The position numbers and the translations under genes are program-made. This document shows, piece by piece, positions 27,931-57,943 of a DNA stretch of 64,000 bases. Where the stretch lies: NCBI GenBank assembly GCA_029582155.1, contig CM055902.1, positions 18,487,248 through 18,551,247 of the forward strand, given 5' to 3'. Position 1 is the stretch's first letter. Every line of letters begins with the position of its first letter. Below the pieces are notes generated by a model. That model worked only from the letters and a program-made list of their open reading frames with translations. It did no database searches and was not told the DNA's origin. The stretch is from Panopea generosa. Lineage: Eukaryota; Mollusca; Bivalvia; Adapedonta; Hiatellidae.

Positions 27931-28325
27931 ATGTGTTTTGGAGATTGGCTGCAGTTTTTAGTGGCAACTATGCTTTCTGTTTGCCTACTTATCATCATTG
28001 CGTGCTACGAGAGACGTCGTCGCCGAAAATGGCCGGGACCAAAGGGATTTCCGTTTATAGGCATATTACTTCAGCTTGGAGATATCGGTGCATTTCATAA
28101 GCAGGTGACGGCATTTGGCAGACGATATGGAAAAATATTTGGGTTTAAACTTTTGGGGAAAAGAGCGGTTGTTCTGCGGTCAGCAAGTATTGTCGGACGA
28201 GCATTAAATGGAATGAAATGCCTGGATAGAAAAGAAACATTTTTCCAAAAATTTGTTTTTAATGATAAGGGATTTGCATTCGCGAACTACTGTGAGAAAG
28301 TGCCGGATTTACGCAGGGTGTTCCA
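27931..28325 (+). CDS. Cytochrome P450 cassette 1, exon 1
   Basis: Encodes the N terminus of a microsomal-type P450. An ER signal-anchor covers about residues 6-26 (WLQFLVATMLSVCLLIIIAC), followed by a stop-transfer cluster (Arg28-Lys33) and the proline hinge WPGPKGFPFIG. The A-helix and beta-1 region follow (YGKIFGFKLLGKRAVVL) and then FNDKGFAFANY, the segment just before the C helix. ATG 27931 is chosen because it sits six bases after a good acceptor (27924) and opens directly on the anchor. The exon ends at 28325 with GTGAGT, phase 2, and joins exon 2 at 29863 to make a His codon. At the C-helix WxxxR site it reads VPDLR, so the Trp is missing. The nearest relative by eye is cassette 2. 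Confidence 0.85.
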
Positions 28326-28750
28326 GTGAGTATATTTTACACGTGCACTTTCATCTTTGGTTCAGTATTGAAATTGTAATTTATGATAAATGTCGACTTT
28401 ATTTTTGAAAACTTTATATCCACATGAAGCACATATGTAATTATAATACCTAAGGATGGGTGCAGAACCTTATTTTCGTTCTCTTTTTGTAAACGGGGCT
28501 AACAATTGTAAACAGTTAAGGACTTCGTCATATTTCTATTGTTCGTGGCTTAATGATTAATGATGAAATGTTTGTATAGTATGCTGTATAAAAATCCAAA
28601 GAAATAACGATTTGTATGTTTTTAATATTTTTACTCATGTTTTCAAAACTAGCGATAATTTACTAGTTTTATTGAAACTGTTAATGATTTCGTCAGAATG
28701 AAGTAGAAATGCTTTCAGAATAATATTTTCATTTCACTTTACGGCGCCGG
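28326..28750. other. Intron of cassette 1, left part
   Basis: Intron sequence after a GTGAGT donor. It holds no other feature before the SINE at 28751. Confidence 0.6.
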
Positions 28751-29046
28751 GCCCGATTAGCTCAGTCGGTTACAAGCCTGACTATCAATCCAGGGGTCGT
28801 GAGTTCGAATCCCCGCCAGGCAACAGTCTCCGTGATGATTTATATACGAAATTGTGTCTCATAATCATTCGTCTCTCACCACTGATTCAAGTGGGAAAGT
28901 TATCAGTTAGTTGTGGAGATGGGGTGTGCTCGAGTACTGGTTAATCCCATGAAACAGTGGTTAGGTTAACTGATCGTCTGTTAGCCCTCGATGGCATAAA
29001 AATGACGCTTACTATTCAATAAATCAATCAATCAATTAATCAATCA
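28751..29046 (+). mobile_element. SINE family A, full-length copy
   Basis: The most complete copy here, about 296 bp. The tRNA-like head runs GCCCGATTAGCTCAGTCGGT (A box at 28758-28769) to the B box GAGTTCGAATCC (28801-28812) and GCCAGGCAAC. Then come AGTCTCCGTGATGATTTATA, the core GTGGGAAAGTTATCAGTTA, GGTGTGCTCGAGTACTGG, TTAGCCCTCGATGGCATAAA and an (AATC)n tail. It lies in the cassette 1 intron, in the sense orientation. The head is too degraded in its stems to be a functional tRNA gene. Confidence 0.92.
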
Positions 29047-29263
29047 ACTCACTTTACGTTTATAGATGTAAAAGATTGTTTCGATGCTCAAGCTTGAGTA
29101 AAATGCGCTTCATAAACTTCGGTGTCCCCTACGGCAAAATTGATATTATGTTATATTTGTTGTAACTCGTTTAATAAATTCAATAATATACAAATGAACG
29201 TTTATGTAGTATCATCTTTATATCACTGTTATATTTTTTGTAACTACGTATTCAACTTAATTT

Positions 29264-29300
29264 TCTATCCAATCAGATTGCCTTGATTTTCAAATGATGT
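29264..29300. repeat. Half of the palindromic MITE arm
   Basis: CTATCCAATCAGATTGCCTTG and the following GATTTTCAAAT match one inner arm of the element at 26568-26772. The partner arm was not found, so this is a fragment. Confidence 0.5.
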
Positions 29301-29862
29301 CCATTGAACGGTTACACTAAATAGCGAAAAGGACTTTAGAAAATGACAGAAAAGGCGATTTCTTTAAGAAAAGGAGCGATTAAATCAACTTTTCTTTATT
29401 AAAGTGCATAAATTTGTTATTTTATTGAAACGAACATTAAATAAATAGCACATGCGTATTTTTAGAAAATTTCATTGACAAATTAATGTTTTATTACCAA
29501 AATGAAATTGTCCATGTATTGAAATGGGGAATTGGTTTCCATTGAACGGTTAATTTATTAATCGTTCAGACAAACCGCTTAATACTTGCTTAACGTAACA
29601 TCATACATCGCGTGCAAAATAGACTACGTCATGAGTTTGGATACTTCATCTGCATGTCCTAGAATAAAAGACGTCTAGTGAATTGAGTCGCTTCATGTAC
29701 ACTGAAATTCTTTCAGCACATCTGAATCAGTGGTCAATCGCATGTGAGAATAGGCTCAGTCGTCAGTTACGTACACAATTATTTACGCATGTCTTATTGA
29801 TTATAAAAAGTAGAGATTTCTTACTTGAAAGGCGTTTGACAATAACTTTTTTCACTTTACAG

Positions 29863-30022
29863 TAACTCATTATACTGGAAATGGCAAGAGAGAGAATCAA
29901 CAGACAAATGGTTGCAGCTAGAAGTGGCAAGGACAATAACAACTCTAACTGAGAAAGCAGGATCTGATATCAACACGGATGACAGTTTTCGTCGGTTAAT
30001 GACGAACATTTACGCTTCTTTG
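29863..30022 (+). CDS. Cytochrome P450 cassette 1, exon 2
   Basis: Acceptor TTCACTTTACAG ends at 29862, and donor GTAAGT starts at 30023. Joined to exon 1 the frame reads VFHNSLYWKWQERESTDKWL and ends DDSFRRLMTNIYASL. It covers the C-D helix region and raises the cassette to 185 codons, closing in phase 0. Its last 15 residues align end to end with the ends of cassette 2 (HLKTFLADVFTNL) and of the complete gene's exon 1 ([15 protein letters not shown]). No further P450 exon is seen before 42168, so either this cassette splices to the distant exon at 51390 or it is a 5' gene fragment. The Met at 29881 is in another frame and irrelevant. Confidence 0.8.
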
Positions 30023-30504
30023 GTAAGTAGGATATTAGAGTATGGAATTGTTTGAATTGGTTAAACACACGTTTTAACACATTGCATAGTTTATATGGCG
30101 GCTAGTTCCATTAGCTGATGAACATTTTTAATATGAGTAAAACCACCGACTTTTCACAAACTTTTAGACATAGAATATTTGGGTCAAGCTTGGCTAGAAA
30201 CCACGACTTTTATGCAATGAGAGAAGTAAGTAATGTTGAGACAACACTCTAACCCCTCAGCCACAGTGGACGTTGTATACATGCATATGCAATGAAGCTT
30301 TCAATAAAATTGTGTGTAAAGATTGGACTTCGTGTGTGAAAAGACATCTGAAGATATCATATCACGTCAGTTTTATATATTATACATTTATAAATAATGA
30401 TCATTTTGTCATATTAGTGCATTATGTGCCCCCATAATCCAGCATAGAGCTCTTCCGTTTGGATATACCGACTTCAATATTAGTTAAGACTATTTAGAGA
30501 ACTA
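30023..30504. other. Sequence after cassette 1
   Basis: No exon, polyadenylation context or element identified. Confidence 0.45.
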
Positions 30505-30655
30505 GTACAACATCTACCACTTCTTCCACAACAATAACAATCATCATTGCTGTCGATTTCATTATCATTTTTTTCATCTTTAACATTGTCTTCACCATTA
30601 TCATTATCATCAGTATTACAATCATCATCATAATATTCACCATCATTATCGCGAT
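30505..30655. repeat. Degenerate (ATC)n low-complexity tract
   Basis: Imperfect ATCATCATTATC-type text in which ATC and ATT triplets dominate, an eroded trinucleotide microsatellite. Confidence 0.7.
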
Positions 30656-31432
30656 TAATTATGACTAAATTATTGAATTATACAATATAAAATATTACTT
30701 TATGAAGAATGAAATCCAATACAGTACCTCTTTCAATGATTAAACAATGCAGCTATAGTGTATAATTCAATGGTGTTAATTTATAAAACTAAATGAATTC
30801 TTCTTTCACTAATACATTGCACACATATTAAATCTTTATCATCTATTTTTTTACATGGGACAAAAAAAATGACACTGATGTAACCGAGATGCTGAATAAC
30901 AATTAACAACTAATTAACTAAGACCCCCTTGTACGCACTTTATAAACGCCCAATGACTTGTTAATAACATTCACCTGAAAAAAAGTAAGTGAACAAAAAT
31001 GACGAGATCAACTGGTGGTCCAAATTTCCGTAAATGCTAATCCGTCGTCGTAAAAGCGGTCGTTATTTCGAATATAGGGGTGGCAATATTATTATTAAAA
31101 ACAATGATCATTAAACAAAAAGAAAAATCCAAATTCTATTATAGAGATGGTCCTAATGCAGGGTTTTAGTGTAAATTTAAACAACAGTGCTGATGGACAT
31201 TAAGACACTGCATAATTAAAATGATGGCGTTTGGGGTCTAGCAAATAACGTGACAGTCAGTAAGACTATCATTTTACATTCGGGAACTCCATGCGTCCAG
31301 ATGTCAAACCCATTTTAATGTTGATGTGTATATTTGACGCATAGAGCTCTATACGCCGAGGCTGTGTTGAAAATCACGTTAACACCATTAAAATAACCAA
31401 ATAGAACACACACATTAATGTGAATATCTGCG
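30656..31432. other. Gene-free interval
   Basis: Nothing recognised. AT-rich. Confidence 0.45.
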
Positions 31433-31530
31433 TGTCCTTCCACAAATAACTGGCAAATTTTCTCATTTAAAAATGTTGGACCCAGCCGGTCTCAAACCAA
31501 TGTTCTCAGCGGTAACAGGCAAGTGTTTTT
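31433..31530 (-). mobile_element. SINE family C fragment
   Basis: The complement reads as the SINE C core: a degraded B box (GGTTTGAGACCGG), then GAGAAAATTTGCCAGTTATT and TGTGGAAGGACACGC. It is broken at its head end by the TTAA-bounded element that starts at 31531, which gives a nested pair. Confidence 0.55.
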
Positions 31531-31762
31531 TTAAACCCTTTGCTCCATAGATACGCGTTTTTCCGCACCAATCACAGAAGGTCTTTGAAAATAGTGCAGG
31601 AAGAGTTCAGATTGCTCGTTACGAGCAATATGAACACTTCCTGCACTGTTTTCAACTCTGTCAGTTAATATAAACATAATTCAACCATTGCTGATACGTG
31701 GTGAATTAATGCTTTCAATATTAGAAGGTGTCCAAAGGCGTCTATATGAAGTAAAGGGTTAA
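31531..31762 (-). mobile_element. piggyBac-type MITE, copy 1
   Basis: Bounded by TTAA at 31531-31534 and 31759-31762, with ends ACCCTTTGCTCCATAGA and AGTAAAGGGTTAA. TTAA duplication with CCCTTT ends is the signature of piggyBac-family elements. In the centre lies a long hairpin, 31594-31646 (GTGCAGGAAG ... CTTCCTGCAC), with an inner GCTCGTTACGAGC palindrome. A second copy in opposite orientation lies at 42800-43054. Non-coding, so it depends on a transposase from elsewhere. Confidence 0.8.
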
Positions 31763-33261
31763 AAGATAAACTTTATACGAGAATTTCTGGCCGTTACTCG
31801 TGGAATGATGGAGGTTCAAGACTGATTCACATTTAGGCTCTCCATACATAGATTATAATGGATATATACTCTTTATTTCTATTTTAAATCAAGGATTTAC
31901 AACGTAACATCATCTCAAAACAAACAGTACAAGAACAAACATACAATACACACGGTGAAGGTACATGCCACCACAAAGCGTAATTCATAATTGTTATGAA
32001 ACAAAAATCACAAAATAAACAGAAAAGAACATTATAATTTATTATTATTTTTTTAATTTTTTGTTTGTAACAAATATGGCGTAAAATGGTTTGGGCGGTG
32101 ATCGCTCAGCCGGTATATCAGTTTACCTGACCCCTATAATGAATGCATATAACCACAAATATATACTGCGTTTGTCAAGTATTTATTGAACAACGAACAC
32201 GTTTAACAACAATTACAATTACCTTCTTCAGTAAACCGTTTTAATTTTATTACATTTGGCAATGTTTACCAATGGTATTATCGATGGCCAAAACTATCAA
32301 TATTACTTATATATGCAATATTACTGTTTCTTACTGCTATTATTTTAAGAGCTTGATCGTATTACCTTTCTATGTATATAAATATACGTCTGTTAGAACA
32401 GTATTGTATACCGGATCACCATATCAGCGGCGGATCGAATAGTTCACATTTTGGTCGTCACCAGGGTCGTAAACTGTCGGTAAATTTTCAATATAGTTGT
32501 TCAAGAGATTTAAATATGACCTTAGAGAGAGCAAACACATTTTAGAGGAGCGCAATATATACTTTGCCGTTTAAGGAATGGTCGTACACGTTTTAGGATG
32601 GGGTCGAGTTGTACACCGGTTTTTGTGCTGGATTTTAATTAAAATTAACGATACCTGCCAACTTTTGGGCGATTGGGGCGGCTCGCCCTGATCAACATAC
32701 GCATATATTCATTCAGGTTCATGATTTATGAACTGCAAGCGTCTGGTGGACTCTTCGACAAATACCAATGAAACTTACTATATGAAACAAACAATTTGTA
32801 TTATATGTAGAGTATGTGATTATGCAGGTAGATATATATATATATAGCTACGTATATCACTACACATGTCAGTGTAGATCTCTGTAGGGATATAGGAATG
32901 CATTTTTCTTAATCTTTATTGTAGTTAAGTTTCCAACCGATGTGTTGTTCCAGGGCACCCAATGAGTGATGGCAAAAAAGAGAATATGTAGCTTGTGTGT
33001 GGCGTAATAGGCAACACATAGAAAATTAAATAGAATTTACTGAACTCTGCAATTCTGCAGGTATCAATGTTCTAGGCTCGTTCTGTATATGTATTTGTTG
33101 ACGTGTTGTTGTCTTTTGTTCAGCTTTTATGTTATTCAATAATAATTATATTTGTACATGGATTGTGAACCTAAGTCATGTTGGTGATATATAACAAATA
33201 GCTTGGTGGTACGCCGTAAAACCCCAATTAATTCATTCGTTGCCCTTTTCTCTATAACCTA
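31763..33261. other. Gene-free interval
   Basis: No gene or clear element. Short TA runs near 32830. Confidence 0.45.
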
Positions 33262-33438
33262 TTATTGTTCGTCTCTCACCTCTGATTTAAGTGGGAAAGT
33301 TATCAGTTACTTGAGCTGATGGGTGTGCTCAATCACTGGTTAACTTTCCAAGATCCCAAGAAAGAGCGGTTAGGTTAACTGATCGTCTGTTAGCCCTTGA
33401 TGGTAATAGACGCGTAACACTCAATTAATCAACCAATC
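33262..33438 (+). mobile_element. SINE family A, diverged headless copy
   Basis: Begins at TTCGTCTCTCACCTCTGATT and runs through AGTGGGAAAGTTATCAGTTA and GTTAACTGATCGTCTGTTAG to a degenerate AATC tail. The head and first body segment are absent. It is more diverged than the other family A copies. Confidence 0.8.
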
Positions 33439-33844
33439 TATATCCTATTGCGAAGGTGTCACCGGTGTTTTTTTTCTTTAAAAATAATATTTGGCTAAGA
33501 TTACAAACAAAGTATTACCATTTTAAATTTATTAATGTCATGTAATATTCAACGATATTAATACATAAATTTCATAAGTTATTTCTGCTTTGATTAATCA
33601 TAGTATTACTTATATTACACAACGTGTTATATGATATGAGGTAATTAGATTAATTTATGTATGGAGTTCGACAACCAATCAATGGGGATTTCTTAAACTC
33701 AGTTGCGCGTTCTCGTGTAAAAGACATTGATAAATAGTATTTATGATTTAACAAAATATTTTGCATATATATAGTCATTAATTCTCAGTGACAATTATAA
33801 TTACTAAATGGTTACATGGTAATGATTTATGTGAATTATACTCA
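33439..33844. other. Gene-free interval
   Basis: AT-rich sequence between a SINE and the LINE relic. Nothing else seen. Confidence 0.45.
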
Positions 33845-35765
33845 TAACAAATTCAATTCAGTTCAATTAAATTTTATTGACAAACTATCAGCAAACATAT
33901 GCCTTTGGCCATTTACAATACATGTATCTTTAAATCATATGGCAAAGACATGACAATTACATATTACAATCAATACATTTTGATGAGAAATTTTAAAACA
34001 AATGTAACACACAAAAAGGCACACTTCCGCGCGAGAATGTACTCACTTTTTTTCAACATTTTTAAGGAAAAAAAACGAAATATGAAATAAGGTATTAATC
34101 AGATGGTTACAAACCTTAAATGCTTCATGTATCAATTTGGAAAATAAACAAGTAGTTTTCGTCTTTTCTTGGATAATTAATTTACAAATTTATTAGACGT
34201 GGGTCATGCCATCCGTGGACTATATTTACGACGTAAATCGTAGTATCTTGGACATATTAGTAAAAAATGGTATTCGGACTCTTTATTATTGTTTGTACAC
34301 ATTTGGCAAATTCTGTTCTGTCTTTCGACACCAGTATATCTTCCGGATTCAATCGCAAAATAAGATATGAACTTAATCTAAAACAACTATGTTGTTTTCG
34401 TTTGGGATCATCTGTAATTAAAGATAAATATTCCTCATATATAAAATCTGTTTTGAATTTACAGTAATAATTAAGTTTAGGCATTGCATGAATACTTCCT
34501 CTCCAAAATTGAATGTATTGATCAGTCGTTGTTTAATAATTGGCAAATAATTGACATTTCTATTAAAATTATCCCAAATATAACTATACCCCAAATCGTC
34601 TAATATTGTTCTTTGAACCCCGCTTTGTTTATGTTGTTGATTATTCATATTTATATATTGTTCCATGAAAACTCGATGGATAAGAGAACCAGGATTGCTT
34701 TTGATTTTTATTCAAAATTTAATCGCTTGTTTTTTTTTTACAAATACTCGATAAAGGATATCTGCCTAGATAACCTAGCAAGCAGGATTAGGTGGTTGAG
34801 TTTTAACTCCTCAGATACGCTTAAGGAATTTTATATGTATTTTATCGATATCTTTGTAGTCAAATAAATTATTCACAGGTCTTAGAGCTTGATCTGCTGG
34901 AGTTTTTGGAATTATTTTCATATTATCGTTATACATAAATTTGGTTCCTAAGTAGCAGAAATTGTCTACATTACCCAATTTTTCACCATTTATGAGCCAT
35001 TCTAGGTTATGTACTTGTTTTCTGTTTTCAAAAATACAAACTTTAGTTTTATTAATATTTATTTTAATCCCAATTTCAATGAGTATTCATAGATATTATT
35101 TAAATGCAATTGTAGACTGTTGGGATCAGTAGTAAGTAAACAAAACAATATCATTTGCAAATAATAATAAGTATAAACACAAGTGATTAATATCCGATTC
35201 AGTCAGATTATCTATGTTAAAAGTATTGTTAACATCATTAACAAAAAGAATGAACAGAAAGGAGAGAAGAGGAGAGAGTGGCACCCCTGCTTCAATCCAA
35301 GCGTGACATCAACAATGTAAGATAAATTAGAAGATAATTTTAGCTTTCCTATAATTTTCGTTAAACCACGCTGCCTCTTTTTTCTTACATTAACATGATC
35401 TTTTTTTAAAGGATTTTCCAAATAGTTTGAAAGGTGTATCGTATATCATATTTGTAAACTTTATTATACTATCATTTATTGAATCTTTATTTTCAGTCAT
35501 GTTGTCAGTAACATCTTTAAAACTTTGAACTTTTGATTGAAGTAAAGTATTCAAAGCCTCGGCCCTAGATGCATCCCAAATAATTTTGACAATATATACG
35601 TTATCTGTATGATTATTTCCAGTCATGCGACAACTTAATGCAAACTGCAAAGGACAATGGTCAGAAAATTCCATTAAATCTAACACATTCATAAAACAGA
35701 TAGTGTTAAGATTATTCGCGCTAGTTATCAAGTAGTCCACAAATAAAAATATGGTATAAAAATCC
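33845..35765 (-). pseudogene. LINE (non-LTR retrotransposon) relic
   Basis: Minus-strand pieces appear in the order of a LINE ORF2. The AP-endonuclease end carries FSDHCPLQFAL (35390-35740). Next comes a reverse-transcriptase block, VDVTLGLKQGC (35212-35421), equivalent to the LKQGCPLSP motif. At about 35150-35161 the active-site box reads FAND where FADD is expected, followed downstream by NINKTKVCIFENR and WLINGEKLGNVDNFCYLG. A C-terminal piece at 34257-34484 includes IIKSPNTIF. The 3' end near 33845-33890 carries an AATAAAATTTAATTG-type tail. The distance between the endonuclease SDH and the QGC motif is much too short, so part of the RT has been deleted. Frames are broken several times and the 5' end is truncated near 35765. 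The element is dead. Confidence 0.8.
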
Positions 35766-37096
35766 TATAACAAAATTCACATAATTCTTTTTAATGAGTA
35801 TTTAAATTACATCAAATAGCACACTTAAGGTGTTGTGATATCCCACTTTGAAAGAATGAATATGCTGTTTATCTAGTACGTTATGTAAATTATATTTTAG
35901 TTGGACACTACATTGCAGTATAATAGCTTTGAAAATATTTACATAAAGTATCAAAACAGAAAATAAATAATTGGTTATTGTATAAAGATTTTACGTTACA
36001 ATGTTGAGGACTTTAATATGAATATTATTTGTGAATTTGGGGACAATACCAGACGCATATCGCCTTCTCAATAGTAGAGTTAAAAAATAAAACGCTGACA
36101 TAGATAAAACACGGTATAAAATTGAATGGACCATTAATTGTTCATATCAGTTTATACAATCAACAGCACACAGCTATAAACCTGTGATATGCATCTAGGA
36201 CAAATGTACACGTTTGCAATATCGTCGTTAGAAAGAAGATGTAGTACATACACTACACTTTAGAGTAAATTAACCGACAGGTGCGACATCTTTATAAACA
36301 ACAAGTCATTAGTACACCTATAATTTGCGGGCGCGGTCCACATTTTATTTTTAGCATGTCAGTGCATTCATTTCTGTTGATAAACCGCCTACCTTTATAT
36401 ATATTTATACATTTTGACCTAGACCTCTACAAGTTGTAACAAAAGTTTGATGCTGATTTTCAATTATATAAAAAACACGAAATAGATATATTGACACGAT
36501 AAAGAGAATACCATATTAGTGTCTAATTGTATCAACTTCATCAGGTTCGGTACGAAATAAAAAAAACAAGGAATCGACAGAAACTCGTCCTATTTTTTTT
36601 TTCTAATCCTCACCTGATAAAATTGATAATATCAGACACCAACATGGTGTTTTCAATTTCACAGATCAATTTGGAACGGCTTCTAACAAGTGACCAGCCC
36701 TACTCATAATTCGAGGGGTGAAAACGTAAAAGGTCTAAGTACTTCTTTATTTATATGCACATAGATCTTTTTCGCATTCACCAAAAAACTTTCCAATTGT
36801 CGAGTACTAAAAAGCTCAAAACCATGAGCAAAACGTCACCTTATCTTAAGACGTGATTCATTAATAAACCACCTTGAATTTGTTGTCTGACATTCAGTGA
36901 TTTTATAGGCATTTGGTGATATTTTCTGTCTGCATGTCCTTGTAACCCGTGTCCCGAAGACAAACATGTTTCCACTAGATAGTTTATTAAAGCAACTTTA
37001 TCAAAATTCACTTGTTTGAATCAGGGTTTTATTTGTTTTGGTCCGTCTTCAAATTCTACTGACCACCTAGTATGAATATGATGTTAGTCGTAACAA
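35766..37096. other. Gene-free interval
   Basis: No gene recognised. Short AT-rich frames only. Confidence 0.45.
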
Positions 37097-37140
37097 GGTT
37101 CTAATGGTAGAGCGTCCGTCTCGCATGTGGAAGGTGGTGG
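37097..37140 (+). repeat. tRNA-like head at the array edge
   Basis: GGTTCTAATGGTAGAGCGTC and then CGTCTCGCATGTGGAAGG read like the D-arm to anticodon-arm part of a tRNA or SINE head. Where a GTCGTGGGTTCGAATCC-type B box would follow, the text becomes GGTGGTGGAGTTTTACAC, which is the 52-bp array unit. Confidence 0.5.
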
Positions 37141-38280
37141 AGTTTTACACTATGTGTCTGCGGCATGACACTTCAGTGTGGCAGCGTCGTGAAGTTCTAC
37201 ACCATGTGTCTGCGGCAAGATAATCCAGTGTGGCAGCGTCGGGAAGTTTTACACCACGTGTCTGCGGCATGATACTCCAGTAGCGCAGCGTCGTGGAGTT
37301 TTACGCCACGTGTCTGCGGCATGATACTTCAGTATGGCAGAGTCGTGGAGTTTTACACCATGTGTCTGCGGCATGATACTCCATGTTTTACACCATGAAT
37401 CTGCGGCATGATACTCCAGTGTGGCAGCGTCGGGGAGTTTTACCCCATGTGTCTGCGGCATTATACTCCAGTGTGGCAGCGTCGGGGAGTTTTACACCAT
37501 GTGTCTGCGGCATGATACTCCAATGTGGCAGCGTCGTGGAGTTTTACACCATGTGTCTGTGGCATGATACTCCAGTGTGGCAGCGTCGGGGAGTTTTAAA
37601 CCACGTATCTACGGCATGATATTCCAATGTGGCAGCGTAGTGGAGTTTTACACCACGTGTCTACGGCATGATACTCCAGTGTGGCAGCGTCGGGGACTTT
37701 TACACCATGTGTCTACGGCATGATAATCCAGTGTGTCAGCGTCGTGGAGTTTTACACCACGTGTTTGCGGCATGATACTCCAGTTTGGCAGCGTTGGGGA
37801 GTTTTACACCATGTGTCTACGGCATGATACTCCAGTGTGGCAGCGTCGTGGAGTTTTACACCATGTGTCTGCGGCATGATACTCCAATGTAGTAGCGTCG
37901 TGGAGTTTTACACTACGTGTCTGCGGCATGATACTCCAGTGTGGCAGCGTCGTGGGGTTTTACACCATGTGTCTACAGCATTATACTCCAGTGTGGCAGC
38001 GTCGAGGGAGTTTTACACCACGTGTCTGCGGCATGATACACCAGTGTGGCAGCGTCGGGGAGTTTTACACCATGTTTCTACGGCATTATATTCCAGTGTG
38101 GCAATCGTCTGTTAGCCCTCGATGGCATAAAAATGACGCTAAATATTCAATCAATCAATCCAGTGTTGCAGCGTCGGGGAGTTTTACACCACGTGTCTGC
38201 GGCATGATGCCCCAGTGTGGTAGGTGGTGGAGTTTTACACCACATGTCTGCGGCATGATGCCCCAGTGTGACAACGTAGT
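37141..38280. repeat. 52-bp tandem array, about 21 copies
   Basis: The unit contains TTTTACACCATGTGTCTGCG, GCATGATACTCCAGTGTGG and CAGCGTCGTGGAG. It is GC-richer than its surroundings. Copies vary at CATG/CACG, TGCGG/TACGG and CGTGG/CGGGG. One copy at 37380 is a partial unit and one position holds an inserted SINE tail (38104-38159). Open frames on both strands are repeat artefacts. Confidence 0.93.
38104..38159 (+). mobile_element. SINE A tail inserted in the 52-bp array
   Basis: Fifty-six bases (ATCGTCTGTTAGCCCTCGAT through GACGCTAAATATTCAATC) interrupt one unit. The array word CCAGTGTGGCA (38093-38103) lies before it and CCAGTGTTGCA (38160-38170) after it, an 11-bp target-site duplication with one mismatch. 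It is an extremely 5'-truncated SINE insertion that postdates the array. Confidence 0.85.
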
Positions 38281-41930: not shown

Positions 41931-41940
41931 CTATAAATAG
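41931..41940 (+). promoter_or_regulatory. Candidate TATA box, P450 cassette 2
   Basis: CTATAAATAG is a consensus-quality TATA box, 228 bases before the ATG at 42168. The spacing matches the TATA-like words before the other two P450 starts. Confidence 0.4.
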
Positions 41941-42167: not shown

Positions 42168-42782
42168 ATGAAACAAATGAGATTTTTGCTGTCTAAAACG
42201 TTCAACTCCAGCAATGCATCTCTTCTGCTTAAGCCTCTACGTCAGACTAGAGACGTCGGGAACCAGTCCATGTACACAGTGACTCGTGCTTTACCGTGCC
42301 ATTATCACCAACAGGAACGGGTGCGAAAACTTAGCTGCAAATATATATCGCTTAAAGAGTGGACTGGACGAGCTCAAGGTGGCAAATTGCATTTTTATTT
42401 CAACGAACTCGGTAAAACACACGGACCACTATTTCAAATACAAATTAACATTTTACGTCAAAAAATAGTCGTCGTGAACTCATCAAATTTGGTATACAAG
42501 ATACTTGGAAATGAAACTGAAAAGACAAGCGACAGAATGACGCCGTTTTTTCAGAAAGGCGTTTTCAATGATAACGGATTTTCGTTTGCTAATTATTCTC
42601 AAAGAACAGAGAAACAAAAACGAATTTTAATGAAGTACCTTAATACTAAATATAAAATGGCAACATTGGATGGGAATACTGGCATAAAACAACTCATAAC
42701 ATCTTGTTTTGATAAAAGTGACTCCTTTTTAGATACTGAAGTGCATTTGAAAACATTTTTGGCAGACGTTTTCACAAATCTT
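42168..42782 (+). CDS. Cytochrome P450 cassette 2, single exon
   Basis: 205 codons of P450 N terminus. Unlike the other two cassettes it lacks both a hydrophobic anchor and a PGPKG hinge. Its first 28 residues hold six Lys/Arg and no acidic residue (MKQMRFLLSKTF and on), which looks like a mitochondrial presequence. GGKLHFYFNELGKTHGPLF then matches the A-helix start. FNDNGFSFANY is shared with cassette 1, and the C-helix WxxxR site reads TEKQK. The exon ends in phase 0 at AATCTT with GTAAGT at 42783, aligned with the ends of the other cassettes. No exon for a C-terminal half is seen before 50336. It may be an alternative first exon of the gene at 51390-57943, or a 5' gene fragment. Confidence 0.78.
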
Positions 42783-42799: not shown

Positions 42800-43054
42800 T
42801 TAACCCTTTACTTCATATAGACACCTTTGGACACCTCTAATAAAGACACTTTTTGACACCTATAATATAGAATGCTTTTGAATTATTGGGTGAATTATTT
42901 TTATATCAACTGACAGAGTGGAAAACAGTGCAGGAAGTGTTCAGATTGCTCGTTACGAACTCTTCTCTGAACTCTTCCTGCACTGTTTTCAAGGGCCTTC
43001 TGTAATTGGTGCGAGAAAACGCGTGTCTATGGAGTCTATGGAGTAAAGGGTTAA
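42800..43054 (+). mobile_element. piggyBac-type MITE, copy 2
   Basis: TTAA at 42800-42803 and 43051-43054 bound a 255-bp element with ends CCCTTTACTTCATATAGAC and GAGTAAAGGG. The central hairpin at 42928-42983 (GTGCAGGAAG ... CTTCCTGCAC) is shared with the copy at 31531-31762. The element begins only 17 bases after the exon 3' end, just beyond the GTAAGT donor. Confidence 0.85.
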
Positions 43055-47163: not shown

Positions 47164-47202
47164 GTCTTGATTCGGAAGATATAGACTATGTTGAATATCA
47201 AA

Positions 47203-47890: not shown

Positions 47891-48015
47891 CATCTCTGTT
47901 TTGACTTACATCTCTCTATTGATAATGATTTTATAAATACATTTTTTTCATTCTCCGACTATTTCGCTTTGACAGAAGATGTTTCTTTGTTTATTTTTAT
48001 TGTTATACGTAATCT

Positions 48016-48180
48016 TTCATGGGCGTAGGAGCGTTTCAATTATTGGGGTGGGTGGGAGGGAACCTGAGGAGAGAGTAAAATATTGGGGCGGTGGGGGAGG
48101 GGGGGGGGGGGCAAAATATATGCTGGTCCCTTCAACTTAACATTTGGGGGGATCGAACCCCTGCCCCCCACCCTCTCCGA
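48016..48180. repeat. G-rich low-complexity dispersed sequence
   Basis: CATGGGCGTAGGAGCG, then GGGGTGGGTGGG, a run of about 19 nearly pure G, and CCCCTGCCCCCCACCC on the far side. It resembles the G/C-rich edges of many invertebrate DNA elements, but I cannot assign a class. Confidence 0.4.
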
Positions 48181-50075
48181 CTCCTTCACATATGTCTCTA
48201 TTTTATTGCTAGAAAACTTACCTTCTAACGTTATCACGATTGACGTAAGGGCTACAGTTCGCTGTCGTAATTCTCCTCTCATCCGCATATAGGACACCGA
48301 TATTTTAAGGTTTGTTTTTACCTGACTTTGATCTTGATGTGACAAACATTCTCGTTACCGTCTGACTAGTTGTCACTTAAAATTCTTATTTGTTATACAG
48401 AAGAAACATCAAAATAGGTTGATTCTGTAACATATTATACGTGTCAGATGTTAGCTGCAGGGACGGATCCAGGATTTTAGTTGGAGCGGACTTGATGCGC
48501 AATACAAAATCTGAACTGCACCTATTTTTTTTCATTGTAAATATAGTGTTTTTTTGTTTTTTTTTGTATAAAATGTGTGAGTTTAGATGGTGGGTGCACG
48601 CCGGGTATCTAAAGAGTTGATCCACCATTGAGCTGGCCCTACACAGCGTCTTCGATTGTGCTAACTGAAAGACTAGAACTTTCCTCTTTTAGCATTTAAC
48701 GGAGGTTCTGGAAATGTGTCCTTATTTCTGTCGTGCTGTTCTTTTAATTATTATTCATTGTCTTGCTGATTGACTTCTGCAAAGTCATCGAGTTTTATAC
48801 GTATAGTATTACGTGGTTCTTTTTTATGTATACAATTTTGCTTGAGTCGGTTTGTTGTCAGTATCATACATATTCACTGTCACATTTAGAAAATAATTGG
48901 ATGGGGTTGCTTTTAATAACATTGTCTCCTTTTTATGATATGACAAATGGAAGTGCGGGGCGATTTAAATCTTTGGCTTAAGGTGTTTGTACTTTAATTT
49001 GAAAACGTCATAATTGTTCTACCACACCAATCGCATGTTTTAGAATTTACTCGTTTTGTGTGGTTGTCATATTTTCAATATGAATAATAACAAAAAAGCA
49101 GAATCTTAGGTTAACATAAAGCCAAAATCGACGGATGAACATCTCACGTACTGGTATGGTATTCCGCACTGGTATTTCCCTTTGTTATGCCTGTATTTAC
49201 ATAAGGTGCATATTTTGACACCATACCCGGTACACCACCGAATATAATTTGATAGTAAAACAGTTGTTATTATGAAGAAATAGCATAAATCATTGGCGTA
49301 TTATATTACTATAAAAGTAGTAAAATGTCTGTGTTACTAAGCGTATCAAAGTGGGGGAAATTAACATTAAGCCACAGCGAGATTTTTTTTTAACTTTTAT
49401 CAATACGCAATCGGAAGTTATTTGAAATATTATAGTTACGAAGGCGTCCCACTTATTTGTTTTCGGGGCTTGATCTACTGACTAAATCGCATTCCTGCCT
49501 TTGTATGTCCTTTTATAAAGTAAACGTTGGATAGTATGAAATGTGACGCCCATGTTTAAAAATAGTACAAAATAGTGTATATATAGACAGAAGCTAGTAT
49601 AGAGAAAGTAATCGTAAATTTGAACTCTACGAAAGAGTACCGTTCGTTATGAATGCTTTTAATTTGTACTGAAAACAGGAAATAATGTTTGAATTTTACT
49701 GAAACGTTCTGTTAGTTTTCTTATAAAGTAATAATCAGCTGAGAGAAAGAATTAATTGTTTATCACTGAGCTACTATATACCATGTGAATGTAATTTATA
49801 TCTATAAAGAAATATTTTAAAGACAACGGGATCGTCTATTTATACTAACAGTAATACGTCTAATCACTACGACGTATTTGAATACTTAACATACGTAATT
49901 AACTAAACTACCAATTAAAAGTGCAATTAAAAAAAATAAACACATACTTTCACTGAGGTTATTGGGTAACAGAAGGTATTTAACGTCATACGGGCGACAA
50001 TAAACTGTGTGTATGTCATTACATTGTTAAGTAAGAGAAGCTAAAACTAAACTTAACATTAACATGTGAATGGAT
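48181..50075. other. Upstream region of the complete P450 gene
   Basis: No gene. A dispersed-repeat-like phrase (GGGACGGATCCAGGATTTTA) lies at about 48460-48480. Frames at 48386-48628 and 48763-48981 have no domain. Confidence 0.45.
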
Positions 50076-50088
50076 TATATATAAATAC
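50076..50088 (+). promoter_or_regulatory. Candidate TATA box, complete P450 gene
   Basis: TTATATATAAATA lies about 250 bases before the ATG at 50336. It is plausible by spacing, but the region is AT-rich, so chance occurrence is possible. Confidence 0.35.
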
Positions 50089-50335
50089 TATTTTCGAAAC
50101 AAATACAACATTAACTCATCAAGTTAGGACGGTGATATATTAAATAAAACACAACTGCCATAGTGCTGACATATAACTATCAAATAACCATAATTGATTA
50201 AAATCGTTTCGGGCAGAACCATTGATTATCTTAATTTCTTATTTTGTGTTTAATTCATCTTCTTGCGGTTAATTGTAAAGATAAAAGAAAAACAGCAGAC
50301 GACTTGGATATACATTCCGATACACACTTTGCAAG

Positions 50336-50914
50336 ATGATGACAGTAATACTTTCATTTTTGACAACAGTGGAACAAATGTGGAGTAAATTAAGCCTCAG
50401 TCTCATAGCGACACTTCGTCCTTGGCAAAGTAAAGTTCGACAAATACCGGGGCCGAAAGGACTGCCTTTCATCGGAAACTTATTCCAGATGAATTCGGAT
50501 AGAATACAGCATTGTTTAACTAATTGGAGTAAATCGTACGGATCTATTTTCAAAATAAAACTTTTAGGGAAAAATGTTGTGACCATATCTGACGCGGAAC
50601 TCTTAAGAAAGACATTTCATAAGGAACCTGTTAGTTTTCATACAAACGACAGAGGCTTGAATTCGTCCCAGTATGTATTTTACGGAAGAAAACATGTCGG
50701 ATTTGCCGATTTGAATTCAGAAACAGTTCGGTTAAGAGAAATTTTAAGGAGAAATGTGTTGATGTATTTGATGCAACAAGAACGATTTGAACAAGTGACT
50801 AGAAAAGCAATACATGCATTACAAGTTCGGATGGCTCATGCCAACTCTATTAACAGGGATTTGAATCCAGATGATTCTATAAAAGATTTTTTAACAGATC
50901 TTAACTCTGAAATA
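50336..50914 (+). CDS. P450 exon 1 (N-terminal cassette 3)
   Basis: 193 codons, phase 0 end, donor GTAAGT at 50915. Of the two adjacent Met codons the first, at 50336, is taken. Residues 1-35 ([20 protein letters not shown] and on) are only moderately hydrophobic and amphipathic, unlike the strong anchor of cassette 1. The [10 protein letters not shown] hinge is intact. At the C-helix the WxxxR site reads TVRLR, keeping the Arg but not the Trp. It ends [15 protein letters not shown], aligned with the ends of the other two cassettes. Confidence 0.9.
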
Positions 50915-53900
50915 GTAAGTTTAATATTATCATATGAATATATATGAATGCACCAATGTACTCATATTCTGTATTAGTATACTCTTATTGCAAATGAAGT
51001 GTAAACATTAAGACGAATTCTTAAGATTATATATTTTTTGTTATTAAACATGATGGCATTGTTGTTTTATACATTAAAGCTGTTATGTACCACTAGTTAA
51101 GAATAAAGCTTACTGATATAATCAGCTTGCAATTGATCTGGCGTGGGCCATCAATCAAACAAGTCAAAGATTTAATCAGCGATTGCTATTGGTTACTACG
51201 GCCCAATTTTCCTTAGACAAGCTGACGATGTATAAGTTAACATTATATTGTATTAACACCACGTGAGCAGTGGGTGGAGAGATTGTCTTACTCACGCCAG
51301 GTCAGTTATATCTAACGTAGAAGCTACCCAATTACTGAAACTTGATTTTTTTCATATATATATATTATTTATCATCTATGTACTTGCAGTTGATGGGAGA
51401 AACACTACCGGAAGACGATCCTGACCGAAATGCATTATGGGAACTTATCAATTGCCTTTACCTGCTTATCGAACCATCGAATGACGGTCCTCTGAGAGCC
51501 ATGCCATTCCTACGTCATCTTCCAGGCAAACATGGGCGACTCTTTAGAAGTACAATCAAAGCAAGGGACAGGGTTGCTCAGCGATATTTTGACACACAAA
51601 AGGTGAGAAATAAACAATGAATACACATCCTATTAAAATGCCATTATTCGTCCCAACAATGTATTTTTTCATTTTGTTTCCCATCTGCTGTATTTGGCAC
51701 TGGGGATAGATGCTGTTGCACAACATAATCCAGAAGCATTTGTCGTATCAGAAACGTTTAAAAAGGACAAAGTATAAGAAGAGCGATGATAGTTGTATAA
51801 CCTAAATGTATTAACAGAGTATCACCTAACAGCGTGTGCCTGTCTTGTCCAATTGTCTTACCTGTTGTACAAGTTAATTAATCAAGGTTCAAAAATTCTT
51901 TATTCAGTAATTTAAACACATAATGTTTCTTATTAGATACAAATTCAATTAACAAATGTAGCAAATGACACGCTGATAATAAATCAATATTATGTTAGAT
52001 TCTGTTAAATTAGAAAAATTACGTTATTTAAATACATATATTTTTTAATAGTGTCTGGATAGAAATATAATAGGTTGGACAAATATAAATTAAACATTTA
52101 AATACTTTGTCAAATATAAAATTGAGTAGATCAACACAAAAAAATAGACGTATATATTATGTATTGAATGTGTCCTTATTACATACAGGAATTTGCAAAA
52201 TAGTAGATATATGATTTAAAATATAACAAATTTAAAATTATTTATTTTACGTCGATTGTAAAACAAATTATTACGATTGAGACAAATCATTGGGTAGAAC
52301 CAGCAAGCGGAAAAATTGTCTTGGTCAATGACATCACCAATAGCGGTGGTTGGGGGTTCGAAGCCACGGCCCTCCGATCTTGGGTTCGATTCTCATTACT
52401 GGACCGCGCGCCGCTCCACTAAACTATAACTGAATCATAAATAATAAGTGGATGTCTGTTGTCATCTAGTTTCGTGTTGTAAATAAATCCTATCGTTAAT
52501 TGTTTTACAACAAAACTACAACATTTTATTGTATGTCCATGTAAAGCTTTATTAGCACATACAAGGATTAGAGCGAAACAAAATTGTTATCTTTATTGCA
52601 TATGTATTGCCTATGTAGTGCTTAGTATATGTTTTGCCTATGATCTGCCTATGTAAGATTATTGTTGTTATATAATTAATGTGTTTTGTTTTTTCTAGTC
52701 AACGTTTCAAGAAGGTCGTATACGAGGTTTGATTGACGTATGTCTTCAGATGCAAGCAGACGGCAGGCGAGAGGACGGCGAATTTTGGCTGACAGACGAA
52801 TATATCAAGGGACTGGTATACGACACCGTAGTAGCAGGTATGCGTCTCTCTTTACATAAATATGACAATTAATTATAATTTATATTTAATTCAACAGCTT
52901 TATAGGCCCTAATGACACAAATTCATGGAATGTGTCTAAGAATTGCCATAATACACGTTTATTTGTATGCAATTGTCGGCTGCTTACAGGCGGGAAGGGT
53001 TAATCAAAAGCATTCAGAGAATTATATCATTATCCTTATAAAACATGAAACAAGATGTAAAATAGCGCAACGCCATAACATACAAGCGATTATGTATGCG
53101 ATTATTTGAACAAACAATGTAATACGTAATACAGCATGCGATATTTCTTCGTCTGTGACGTATAGCTATCACGTGTTCTCCAATAAAAGAACTCATTATT
53201 TGTCATAAAATATAAACTGTTATATATTTTTATTTCAACTAATACATAAAATTATTTTCTATTAAATCCCACCATTGCTGCAACACTTTCCAACCATATT
53301 GTTATAACCTTTTTTCTCTCCCATATAATATATTATTAATTTACCTGTTTTGACAAGCATACGTTTACACTGTTTTGACAAGCATACATTTACACTGTTT
53401 TGACAAGCATACATAAACACTGTTTTGCAGGGATGACGGAAATGATGAAGAGTTTGCGTATCTTAGTTTTATTAATGTGCCACCATCAAGACATCCAATC
53501 ACGTGTTCATACCGAAATCAATGACGTCATACGCGAAGACACGCCTTCGTGTTCACACCGGCAGGAAATGCCATATACACAAGCTGTTATATTGGAAATG
53601 CTGCGCTACGTCAGTCAGACACCGTTAGCCATTCCCCACAAGTGCAATAAAGACATTATCCTCGACGGGTATTTAATAGAGAAAGACTCTGGGGTAAGTC
53701 ATCCGTAGTTTACTTATCTATTATTTATATATTTCAACAGAAGTCCAATTTTATGTACTTGACAACCATTCACGCTGAACCTGTACCACGGTCTCAGTTT
53801 CACATGGAGGTCAATGGCTAGATTACAAGTGAGTCCGTACCAGGTATATGTTATGTATAAACGATGGGGAGTTGCACTGCAAATAGGAATCCGCAACGCA

Positions 53901-56900
53901 ATCTGGACTTCTTGTTTTCGGGGTTGGGAAGAAGGCGTAGATTTTGGTAATTCTTCACTTCGTATGGATTTGGGTGGTTGGGTGGTTGGGTGGTGATAAA
54001 TCATGACATGAGAATGACCATATTTGTATGTTTAGCCTTTCTATATAACAAAAGTTTAAAAAGATCAATCTATAATGAATTTTCGGCTACCTTTCCTACA
54101 TAAAAAAATGAAAATATCTTTTAACTATATTTTCTAAACTATAGGGGGCGACGGGTTCGTCTCCTTTCTGGATTCGCTAGTGGGAATGGGGTTCCGATCA
54201 GAAGAACTACGTCAATGACCAATTACAAGTACACATTGCCAAGTTGTGAAAAATGGGCAATTTAGCACATTTTTCATTGACGTATCAGTAATTGCTGCAA
54301 TTATGCCCACTATCGATAAAGGCTGTAACTGTTGTTGCTATACAGATATGTGACAAGGAACGCCAAAACTTTAAGTAAACGTTTCCTTTTCTGTTCACAA
54401 AGGCTTGAACATTATTTTACATCGCCTTGAAACGATCAGTAACAATACAGCCACTGAGGAGTTTAAATCAAGGTCAGAGGTGCACCCAGCACAAAAATGA
54501 TATGCTATGAATATAGTGTATCTTCATAAATCTTGGTCCATCTTTAATACGCTTTGTTTTAGTTATCTGTGTTTTCTTTTAACGTAAATGTTGTTTTCTG
54601 TCTGTTAATTTTAACGGTACATATATATTTTTAGTTCACAATACGCATTACGCAATTTGTAAAATGCAAAACGCGTACATTATATGATAATATAAATATG
54701 TATAAAGAAACTTCAACCCATTTCAATAACATCTACATACATGTAAGGCAAAAACACCTTTAAAATCATGTATGAATCACACACATACAGTATTGTTAAA
54801 ACGTCAATTTTACTTTGAAATAAATATCAAAAAAGAAAAAAAGTGACAGTAAAGGTCTACGAATTTGTTAGACACCCCTTCGTATAGAAATAAATGGAAT
54901 AATTGAACAAACATGTTTATTAGCCATATATTGTCAACGTAAAGCATAAACTCTTATAGAAATGAGAGGAAATAAAAACTAGTTTGATAATTTGTAAACA
55001 CGAACTAACAATTACAGTTGACAATTTACTAAACTACATTTTCAATAAACGTGATTTTGGAAAGTAAGTTAAAAAGGAAATGTAATTATAGAAAGAAATG
55101 TACGGGAACTTTTGAACTTGAGCCCAACCCTCATGACCTTCTAGTATCGTTTGATCGTTCATACATAACTATCCACCATTATCGTTGTGCGTGTATATAC
55201 AACAAATTATTTACACATTATAAGTCATATCATTCAGTCGACGTAAAACTGAAATGGGAAAAATGTTTGAATGAATGTATGAAAAGAGCGATCGTACGAT
55301 AATAATGTTTTAACTATGCAGTTGTCAAAACAGAGAATATTAAACAGATATTAGCTTAGTCAGTGCAGAAATATAGGTTAAGGTTTGTTTACGTGATATT
55401 TTACACACATCAATCGTGATAAAAACCACTTAACATTTCTTTCTAATAATTATATATCTGCACGATACAAAATGATATTAAACTACCCAAGTATGTATAA
55501 AGACCCTAAATGTTGTTTCTATATTATTACGTTATTGTTTACGTTTCAAGGACAAAGTCAGTTTCTCCCTATTTTCATACTACAGGGTCAAAGTGTTTGA
55601 CGTAGTACTTTTATTAAATTAGCTCAGTCGGTTACGCGTCTGACTATCAAAAGAGAGGTCGTGAGTTCGAATCCCCCGCCGGGCAACAATCTCCGTGATG
55701 ATTGATATACGACATTGTGTCTCATTATCATTCGTCTCTCACCACTGATTCAAGTGGGAAATTTATCAGTTACTTGCGGAGATGGGGTGTGCTCGAGTAC
55801 TGGTTAATCCCAGGAAGCAGTGGTTAGGTTAACTGATCGTCTGTTAGCCCTCGATGGCATAAAAATGACGCTAAATATTCAATCAATCAATCAATAATTA
55901 AAATAGAAAAAACGCCTACAATTGCATGGCCATGATCTGTAGAACTAAGTTATATAGATACGGTAAAATGTACGTAACGATCTGCGGCATTAACAGTTAC
56001 AATCTTGTCATCAGTGTGGGAACAGCAGGTAACATCAGCGTAGTAAGAATCAGTTATGTAATACTAGTATAATCCACCAACCTGTCATCTTCATACCTTA
56101 GGCCTAAAAAAAAAAAAGGTTTGTTTCCTGTTACATGCCCAAAAAAATATGGGTCGGTAGGTAGGGATTTTTTTTTTTTTTTTTTGTCGTTACCACACTC
56201 CTTTATTAAATGGAACATCAAAATGAATGAGTTTGTTAGTTTCTATTACATGATTATATATGTCATTTTGGGGGTAGTGGTGTGAAAGTAGTATATCTTT
56301 TAAATAGTACTCAATTTTAGATATGAATCTGAAATCTGAAGTGGCTATAATAAACCGAGGAAGATGTTTGATATTGGCTATACTGTCTTCGCAAAAATTA
56401 TACCTTGCACCGTTTCTGTGAGTCTATATCATCTAGGCGTATGCAGTGATTATTTTATAATGAGATAACGAGCGTCTAAACGACACAGCGCGCCGGTGTG
56501 TAAGAATTACTTTGTTGTGAAAATCACCAAAAAAAGCGCGAAATCCGATACCGATTTTTTGGACATAAAAACTTTTGAGTCGGCAGTTAAAATATAGGGT
56601 CGGTCGGGTAACCGGAAACAAACATCTTTTTTTTTTAGGCCTTAGCAAGGAATTCCATACCTTTGTATATTGAAATTGTAATACTAGTATAATAAACCAA
56701 CCTTTCATCTTCATACATTAGCAGGGAATTTCATATCTTATATATCAAAATTGTAATACATGTACTAGTATAATCTACCAACCTGTCATATTCATACATT
56801 AGTAGGGAATTCTATAACTTTATATGTCGAAATTGTATTTGTTTATAATATTCTCAAGTTTATATTGAAATAATTATAATTATCAACATTGTTTTCTATT

Positions 56901-57943
56901 TTAGATTCTACCAAATATATGGGGTATTCACCACGACGAAGAAGTATGGGGTGACCCGTGGGTGTTTCGACCTGAGAGATTCTTAGATGAAAACAGTCAA
57001 CTGATACCAAAGGATCACAAACTCATGAAGTCGTAAGTGCCATCAAAACATACACAATAAACGTGTTTTCCCAATAACAATGGAACAACAGCAACAACCA
57101 ATTAACAGTCAATTAGCCAGTAATCTGTTTATGCTTTATATTTAGTATCAGATAGTTCCAAGGCGGTAAACCATCTGTCATTTTCACTGTATGTTTTTAT
57201 TTTTCCTAGTATGTCTACTCTATGGACTGTTTGCGCTTCTGTTGTTTTTGTGGCCATGCCTCTTGCGTTTTTTTTTATTCTTTTTTTTTTTTTGAAGGCT
57301 TGTTCTGTCATTATACTACCAAGGTCAGTCATTCCCCTTTCCTGACATCTCCCTATTCAAGTCTGGTTTACGTAGCTACTTGACTCAATTGTCCAATATA
57401 ATGCCGTATTGTTTCGTGTTCAAGTAACTGACCAATCAGTATGGTTATAGTTATTTGTGAGGGACGGTTCGTAGAGGCAGAGCAAGGAATGTTTCTGTAG
57501 TGTATTTCGGATTTGCCTTCTGGCGTAAACATAACCGTACATTTAATAAACATTTTGTTCATTAACATCAGCATTTTATTGTATAACCAATATATAAATG
57601 TGTAACCTGTGACTTTCGTTACTGGACAAGAATGATATTTGCGATGATGAAAGGATGACAAAGATATATGTACATGTAACATGGTTTTGTGATCTTTTTC
57701 AGATTAATTCCATTTTCTGTCGGAAAGCGACGCTGTCCGGGAGAAAATTTCGCAATGTCAAGGACGTTCTTGACCTTCGTTTCGTTACTACAGCAACTTC
57801 GTTTCGCGCCACCCGAAGATCAAGAACTCCCTTCTGCCGACCCTCGATTGTATACAAACAAATATCCGCTCCATCTCCCAAAATACACGTGCAGAGCAGT
57901 TCCCAGACGGGAAGAGCCCAGACCAGAAGAGAAATCCTCGTGA
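50336..57943 (+). CDS. Complete cytochrome P450 gene, CYP2-clan-like, six exons
   Basis: A haem-thiolate enzyme of the microsomal electron-transfer type; substrate unknown. Exons are 50336-50914, 51390-51602, 52699-52837, 53431-53693, 56905-57032 and 57703-57943, all with GT-AG introns. They total 1563 nt, or 520 residues, the normal size. Order: weak amphipathic N terminus; hinge [12 protein letters not shown] (37-48); pre-C-helix [10 protein letters not shown] helix (about 300-325); K-helix ExxR as EMLR (366-369); FRPERF (419-424); haem loop [10 protein letters not shown] (445-454), with Cys452 the axial ligand. The FAD(L/Y) pre-C-helix and haem loop resemble CYP1/CYP17-like members, so I place it in the CYP2 clan without a family number. 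The I helix reads AGMTEM where AGxDTT is usual, and the C-helix Trp is Thr. The frame is intact across all joins. Confidence 0.92.
51390..51602 (+). CDS. P450 exon 2 (start of shared half)
   Basis: 71 codons, phase 0 at both ends. Acceptor TACTTGCAG ends at 51389; donor GTGAGA starts at 51603. Encodes the E-F-G helix region ([20 protein letters not shown] and on). As a phase-0 exon it could accept any of the three upstream N-terminal cassettes in frame. Confidence 0.9.
52245..52436 (+). repeat. Diverged dispersed repeat in intron 2
   Basis: TTTTACGTCGATTGTAAAACA, CATTGGGTAGAACCAGC and GGGTTCGATTCTCA keep some of the dispersed repeat B order, with a B-box-like end. Very diverged. Confidence 0.35.
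52699..52837 (+). CDS. P450 exon 3 (to start of I helix)
   Basis: 46 codons plus one base. Acceptor TTTTTTCTAG ends at 52698; donor GTATGC starts at 52838. Encodes [18 protein letters not shown], a charged loop and [12 protein letters not shown], entering the I helix. The Gly codon is split across the intron. Confidence 0.9.
53345..53430 (+). repeat. 25-bp tandem repeat ending in a splice acceptor
   Basis: CTGTTTTGACAAGCATAC begins at 53345, 53370 and 53395. A fourth, truncated copy at 53420 reads CTGTTTTGCAG and is the acceptor of P450 exon 4. The repeat therefore abuts and includes the splice site. Confidence 0.85.
53431..53693 (+). CDS. P450 exon 4 (I helix, K helix)
   Basis: Acceptor TTTTGCAG ends at 53430, and donor GTAAGT starts at 53694. 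Completes the split Gly and continues [20 protein letters not shown], so the I-helix motif reads A-G-M-T-E-M. EMLRY is the K-helix ExxR, followed by the TPLAIPHKC beta-1 strand and [11 protein letters not shown]. Ends in phase 0. Confidence 0.92.
53694..55616. other. P450 intron 4, left part
   Basis: Intron sequence. No exon or element recognised. Open frames at 53714-54004 and 55051-55302 have no domain. Confidence 0.55.
55617..55897 (+). mobile_element. SINE family A in P450 intron 4
   Basis: A nearly full copy lacking only the first few bases of the tRNA-like head. A box AGCTCAGTCGGTTA starts at 55621 and B box GAGTTCGAATCC lies at 55663-55674. CAGTTACTTGCGGAGATGG and TTAGCCCTCGATGGCATAAA follow, then a clean AATC tail. 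It is the least mutated copy here, so it is probably the youngest. Confidence 0.92.
56058..56830. repeat. 81-bp tandem repeat, three copies, in intron 4
   Basis: TACTAGTATAATCCACCAAC and CATCTTCATAC words recur, with TACTAGTATAAT at 56682 and 56763 (81 bp apart) and a first copy near 56060. The first copy is split by the 541-bp element at 56101-56641. Confidence 0.75.
56101..56641. mobile_element. PIF/Harbinger-like MITE
   Basis: Terminal inverted repeats GGCCTAAAAAAAAAAAAG, then GTTTGTTTCC at the left, and GGAAACAAACATC ... TTTAGGCC at the right. TTA lies on each side (56098-56100 and 56642-56644). TTA duplications with GG-starting ends are typical of PIF/Harbinger. It contains long T and A tracts and a GGGTCGGT phrase near both ends. 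Non-coding, 541 bp. Confidence 0.75.
56905..57032 (+). CDS. P450 exon 5 (PERF region)
   Basis: Acceptor TCTATTTTAG ends at 56904, and donor GTAAGT starts at 57033. Encodes [20 protein letters not shown] followed by FRPERFLDE, the meander that locks the ExxR pair. Ends with two bases of a Ser codon. Confidence 0.92.
57033..57702. other. P450 intron 5
   Basis: Intron sequence with poly-T near 57265-57295. No element recognised. Confidence 0.6.
57703..57943 (+). CDS. P450 exon 6 (haem-binding loop, stop)
   Basis: Acceptor GATCTTTTTCAG ends at 57702. Encodes [20 protein letters not shown] with the Cys ligand, the L helix, and a C-terminal tail of about 25 residues rich in Arg, Pro and Glu ([13 protein letters not shown]). 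It stops with TGA at 57941-57943. The charged tail is longer than in many P450s. Confidence 0.93.

Follow-up and report, generated by a model that had tools for sequence, protein, structure and literature searches.

Three divergent P450 N-terminal blocks upstream of one catalytic half: possible alternative first exons of a single locus

We describe a stretch of DNA (the window; 64000 bases, no N, 34% G+C) that holds three P450 N-terminal blocks and, downstream of them, one set of later exons. We propose that the blocks may serve a single UGT1A-type P450 locus as alternative first exons, a reading to which we give a probability of about 0.42. This and the odds worded below for the other readings are judgements, with no formal model behind them. 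Such a locus had been put forward in an initial annotation of this DNA. The anatomy that it needs is present, as open frames with matching donors and phase, while remnants of older genes are nearly as likely, and we slightly favour alternative first exons over detritus remnants. An alternative-first-exon locus would account in one step for two orphan blocks that are intact, that keep donor and phase, and for which no later exons were found.

In the proposed locus, each of three alternative 5' coding blocks would have a promoter of its own. Transcription would start from one of these predicted promoters (~27.7, 41.9 and 50.1 kb), and the chosen block would be joined through its GTAAGT donor, in phase 0, to the common acceptor exon at 51390, later blocks being skipped; for the two upstream blocks this would imply long splices of 21.4 and 8.6 kb. 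The three predicted products would be CYP2-clan P450s that differ in their N-terminal third (A-D helices and substrate-recognition site 1) and have their I, K and haem regions in common.

Table 1. Positions of the P450 blocks, the later exons, the TATA-like words and the MITE-like pair in the window.
Feature	Position	Strand	Description	Match
TATA-like word, block 1	27656-27663	+	275 bp upstream of ATG	
Block 1, first coding exon	27931-28325	+	Membrane anchor, PGPKGFPFIG hinge, A to C helices; donor GTGAGT	Pfam P450 3.9e-10
Block 1, second coding exon	29863-30022	+	C-D helices; phase 0 end before GTAAGT	profile E 0.019
MITE-like element, inverted sister copy of 42800-43054	~31531-31762		TTAA-flanked	
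TATA-like word, block 2	41932-41939	+	236 bp upstream of ATG	
Block 2	42168-42782	+	One exon, P450 N-terminal; phase 0 end before GTAAGT	Pfam P450 4.1e-9
MITE-like element	42800-43054		TTAA-flanked, ends approximate; begins 17 bp after last base of block 2 exon	
TATA-like words, block 3	50076-50087	+	Overlapping; 256-260 bp upstream of ATG	
Block 3 (exon 1 of complete gene)	50336-50914	+	Phase 0 end before GTAAGT	Pfam P450 3.7e-14
Exon 2	51390-51602	+	E-G helix region, phase 0 start; sole acceptor exon of its kind found in window	
Exon 3	52699-52837	+	Up to start of I helix (...VVAG)	
Exon 4	53431-53693	+	I helix AGMTEMM, K helix EMLR	
Exon 5	56905-57032	+	PERF region	
Exon 6	57703-57943	+	Haem loop, stop codon	

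As the initial annotation had stated, the three blocks are non-identical open frames on the + strand (185, 205 and 193 codons), and each stops in phase 0 at one common aligned residue, with GTAAGT immediately 3'. The frames match Pfam P450 (Table 1). The word GTAAGT occurs 15 times on the + strand of the window, three occurrences being the block ends and two the donors of exons 4 and 5. The best PDB sequence matches have E values of 3.1e-6 for block 1, 2.4e-8 for block 3 and only 0.069 for block 2, whose Pfam match is limited to residues 80-177 of a 221-residue open frame. Taken by itself, the second coding exon of block 1 is a weak match: its value in Table 1 was obtained with the complete downstream gene in the profile and becomes 3.7 without it. 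The stretch between C helix and junction measures 58, 55 and 60 residues in blocks 1, 2 and 3 and 58 in all three vertebrate P450s compared, and the RK/RQ stretch is separated from the YG/HG motif by 36, 34 and 35 residues. The 555 coding bases of block 1 and the 615 of block 2 were examined for loss-of-function changes, and neither stops nor frameshifts nor lost splice sites were seen; start codons, both donors and the splice sites inside block 1 are all intact. The chance of 205 open codons at the stop frequency of the window is ~3e-6. The C-helix tryptophan is absent from the three blocks (aligned residues V, T and T) and also from CYP2A13 (A). Predicted structures of blocks 2 and 3 had mean pLDDT values of 40.3 and 41.5, too low for use.

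The blocks had also been said to differ in membrane anchor, which is partly right, a clear anchor being present in block 1 only. The best 19-residue hydropathy is 2.59 in block 1, 0.91 (weak) in block 3 and 0.52 (no anchor) in block 2, and the first 25 residues of block 2 hold five basic and no acidic ones. The PGP hinge is not present in block 2 in any of the three forward frames of 42168-42410, and a frameshift concealing it was rejected on this ground. Since the motif spacings are close to those of the other blocks and, between C helix and junction, of vertebrate P450s, the frame of block 2 is probably coding across the hinge region despite the lost motif. Anchor switching between blocks is speculative, because block 2 has neither PGP hinge nor anchor.

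Block 3 and the five later exons form a complete six-exon gene (gene 3) of 520 residues, with GT-AG borders in five of five introns, which mark the DNA as eukaryotic, probably animal. Its closest solved sequences are CYP2R1 (7.4e-46), CYP2A13 (8.5e-45) and CYP17A2 (2.2e-42), and on the strength of these relatives gene 3 is placed as a CYP2-clan cytochrome P450. The haem loop FxxGxRxCxG, ExxR and PERF are P450 motifs, as is the I-helix acid-alcohol pair, AGxE/DT. The first three are all present in gene 3; its I helix (52830-53460) reads AGMTEMM, so that the usual pair (AGTET) is missing, and the solved relatives compared have AGTETT, AGTETV, AGVETT or AGMVTT. Because P450s that lack this pair exist, gene 3 is kept in the CYP2 clan by sequence similarity and not by the I-helix motif, and its product may be a non-standard P450. 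Directly next to the acceptor of exon 4 lies a tandem repeat with a 25-bp unit in 3.6 copies (53339-53430), and this acceptor, CACTGTTTTGCAG, resembles a variant of that unit, CACTGTTTTGACAAG.

We compared exon-wise profiles, built from four vertebrate P450s and gene 3, with segments from all six frames of the window, and exons 2-6 each had a single strong match, every one in gene 3. As a positive control, profiles built without gene 3 recovered its exons 2 (1.7e-4), 4 (8.4e-21), 5 (2.8e-13) and 6 (9.6e-13) and missed exon 3, for which the control is blind; they also recovered block 3 (5.6e-15), the first exon of block 1 (1.7e-11) and block 2 (8.1e-8). Given these recoveries, exons 4-6 of blocks 1 and 2, if present, should be visible, on the assumption that they are about as conserved as those of gene 3. 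No second copy of exons 2, 4, 5 or 6 was found on either strand of the 64-kb window, nor a second exon 3 by the profile search whose control misses that exon. Outside gene 3 the best exon 2-6 profile match has 10 residues (LQSIHFDEKF at 33964, E 0.021-0.029). Loose tblastn of four regions outside the blocks and gene 3 gave 17 matches (E up to 10) of 10-72 residues, all with E of at least 0.49, and the best match of a DNA comparison outside the blocks and gene 3 was of 23 bases (E 0.089); both searches gave chance-level matches only. The three approaches together reject overlooked exons 2, 4, 5 and 6 of blocks 1 and 2 within the window, provided that these are conserved like those of gene 3, and the single set of C-terminal exons of the initial annotation, with its first exon in phase 0, holds for exons 2, 4, 5 and 6, the exon 3 search being uncontrolled.

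The blocks share little sequence: pairwise identity is 27% between blocks 1 and 2, 28% between 1 and 3 and 18% between 2 and 3. All pairs fall below 40%, given in a passage of PMC2678163 as the threshold for a CYP family. In a tree of seven sequences (the three blocks and four vertebrate sequences) the blocks stand apart from the vertebrate ones with an ultrafast bootstrap of 100, the order among the blocks having 50, and the distances among blocks are 2.2-2.7 versus 1.8 for CYP2A13-CYP17A2. Their flanks (450 bp upstream, 475-500 bp downstream) share only chance words of 9-14 bases. Judged from these comparisons, the blocks are old or fast-evolving paralogs and, being only 18-28% identical, not recent copies of the 5' end of gene 3. 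A recent duplication of that 5' end is rejected by this identity and the lack of flank similarity, and the simpler alternative first offered for the locus, one gene plus two 5' fragments left by duplication, is as stated a poor fit.

Codon usage at shared residues and simulated decay were also considered. Degenerate codons differ at 24 of 45 shared residues between blocks 1 and 2, 32 of 50 between 1 and 3 and 10 of 30 between 2 and 3; long selection at the protein level is compatible with the counts for 1-2 and 1-3, and less so with that for 2-3. We simulated neutral decay with assumed rates (indels at 12% of the substitution rate, of which 75% were taken as fatal; 3000 trials per block), the percentages being the product of the block 1 and block 2 fractions. 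At divergences of 1%, 2% and 5%, both frames stayed intact in 19%, 3.8% and 0.05% with indels and in 55%, 29% and 5.6% without them.

A TATA-like word about 230-280 bp 5' of each block had been noted earlier, and TATAWAWR is found at such distances before all of them (Table 1). The occurrence in three of three blocks is suggestive, but the motif and the distance were picked after the words were seen, and 7.2% of positions have a TATAWAWR at 220-290 bp. A second, nearer TATAWAWR precedes block 1 (27853, 78 bp upstream) and block 2 (42056, 112 bp upstream).

Several repeats and mobile-element copies were found in the window. The two MITE-like elements of Table 1 have AACCCTTTRCT ends. By eye, a short interspersed element with a tRNA-like head is seen at 28750-29030, 33261-33438 and 38104-38160, and copies of its tail recur between blocks 1 and 2. 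Broken minus-strand frames at 34260-35764 look by eye like a reverse-transcriptase remnant; three of their four pieces were searched and none reached the Pfam cut-off. At 16050-20273 there is a 32-bp minisatellite of 132 copies, with minus-strand frames open for up to 855 residues, which we take as repeat and not gene. Also, a 65-bp tandem satellite (24.6 copies, 96% matches) occupies 60852-62451, ~2.9 kb downstream of gene 3.

The alternative-first-exon reading gains from several of these observations. The recognisable sequence of both orphan blocks stops at one intron, the lengths from C helix to junction (58/55/60) resemble the 58 of vertebrates, the frames are open and would rarely be intact under neutral simulation with indels, the degenerate-codon counts of block 1 against blocks 2 and 3 fit long selection on the protein, and TATA-like words lie at 236-275 bp. 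It is weakened by the lack of PGP hinge and anchor in block 2, which is odd for a working P450 front end, by blocks that differ like separate CYP families, which is unusual for one catalytic half, by the mere 10 of 30 degenerate codons that differ between blocks 2 and 3, by upstream regions in which no promoter similarity was found, by the long and repeat-rich introns that would be required, and by the detritus exons known from P450 clusters.

Nearly as probable is that two old, separate CYP2-clan genes upstream of gene 3 recently lost exons 2-6 by deletion, leaving detritus (solo) 5' blocks that are unused or read through accidentally. Detritus exons beside P450 clusters are described in passages of PMC4365919 and PMC4964396, an identity of 18-28% suits three separate genes, and block 2 is without hinge and anchor. 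The intervals are rich in mobile-element copies and minisatellites, and the simulation without indels allows some neutral age (both intact in 55% at 1% and 29% at 2%). However, this history needs two losses that both broke within one particular intron, and the search of the intervals revealed no decayed trace of exons 2, 4, 5 or 6. The losses would also have to be recent, because frames, start codons, splice sites and donors are intact. Decay signs, which are frequent and not obligatory in detritus exons, are absent from blocks 1 and 2, and the hinge of block 2 is missing without a frame break.

An unlikely reading is that blocks 1 and 2 are parts of complete genes and that their exons 2-6 are not seen because the assembly is wrong, because the haplotype carries a deletion or because they lie beyond the window. 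Their frames and splice sites resemble those of working genes, and both intervals carry repeats of a kind that can break assemblies. Against this, the window has no N, two separate losses would be required, exons lying past gene 3 would imply nested genes, and the six-frame search of 64 kb on both strands found no partner exons for the two orphan blocks (exon 3 being uncontrolled). It is very improbable that transcripts of the two blocks end in the following interval and act as regulatory RNAs or encode short N-terminal proteins that stand alone. AATAAA words do lie beyond the donors, at 30303 and 42839 (the latter 57 bp past the block 2 exon), but such words are expected to be frequent in DNA of 34% G+C, both blocks keep a consensus donor, and no P450 is known to work without its haem half.

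In a UGT1A-type locus, several first exons are spliced to shared later exons and the variable part is the substrate-facing N-terminal portion. Here too, tandem 5' blocks on the same strand, with a common phase and a candidate promoter each, lie upstream of one shared exon set; however, the enzyme family is unrelated, the splicing is predicted from sequence and the blocks are very divergent (18-28%). Drosophila Cyp4d1 is a precedent. Among the literature matches listed, none described a UGT1A-like P450 locus in which several complete N-terminal blocks serve a common later half. Human CYP4F3 exchanges exon 3 and exon 4 and, as a passage of PMC12380495 has it, yields enzymes with different substrate preference from one P450 gene by coding-exon exchange. 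The exchange there concerns one internal exon, whereas here it would concern whole front blocks of 185-205 codons with their own start codons. The same review calls such exchange exceptional among human P450s, which weakens the alternative-first-exon reading (PMC12380495).

A first exon of one P450 can also be joined to the exons of another. CYP3A43 exon 1 joined to CYP3A4 or CYP3A5 exons at canonical sites is reported in part of PMC1890557, and chimeric CYP2C and CYP3A RNAs are discussed in sections of a marine gastropod P450 paper, which also raises the idea that solo exons may be functional through trans-splicing and whose authors consider chimeric or alternative P450 splicing conceivable (PMC3022543). 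In their joining of front and later exons these chimeras resemble the predicted transcripts (PMC1890557, PMC3022543, as far as those passages go). However, chimeric RNAs join separately transcribed neighbours, whereas the window yielded no later exons that belong to the upstream blocks described here. The likeness to detritus or solo exons lies in orphan exons beside a complete clustered gene (passages of PMC4365919 and PMC4964396); unlike these, the two orphans are intact, keep their donor and are not close copies of their neighbour.

A further version of the alternative-first-exon reading is a combinatorial locus, in which three promoters would place N-terminal thirds that differ at the family level on one haem half, altering substrate site 1 and cell location. 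We consider this improbable, more so than the missing exons discussed above. Block 1 would bring an ER-type anchor, and the anchorless, basic and acid-poor N-terminus of block 2 could route the catalytic half to mitochondria or cytosol.

P450 diversity is usually attributed to gene duplication. If the blocks are remnants, they would represent a clean case of exon loss caught early. If instead they are alternative first exons, a front third chosen by promoter and set on one catalytic half would be a second route to P450 diversity. Such a locus would test how divergent two P450 front ends can be and yet fold with one haem half, and it would bear directly on how animals broaden their chemical defence.
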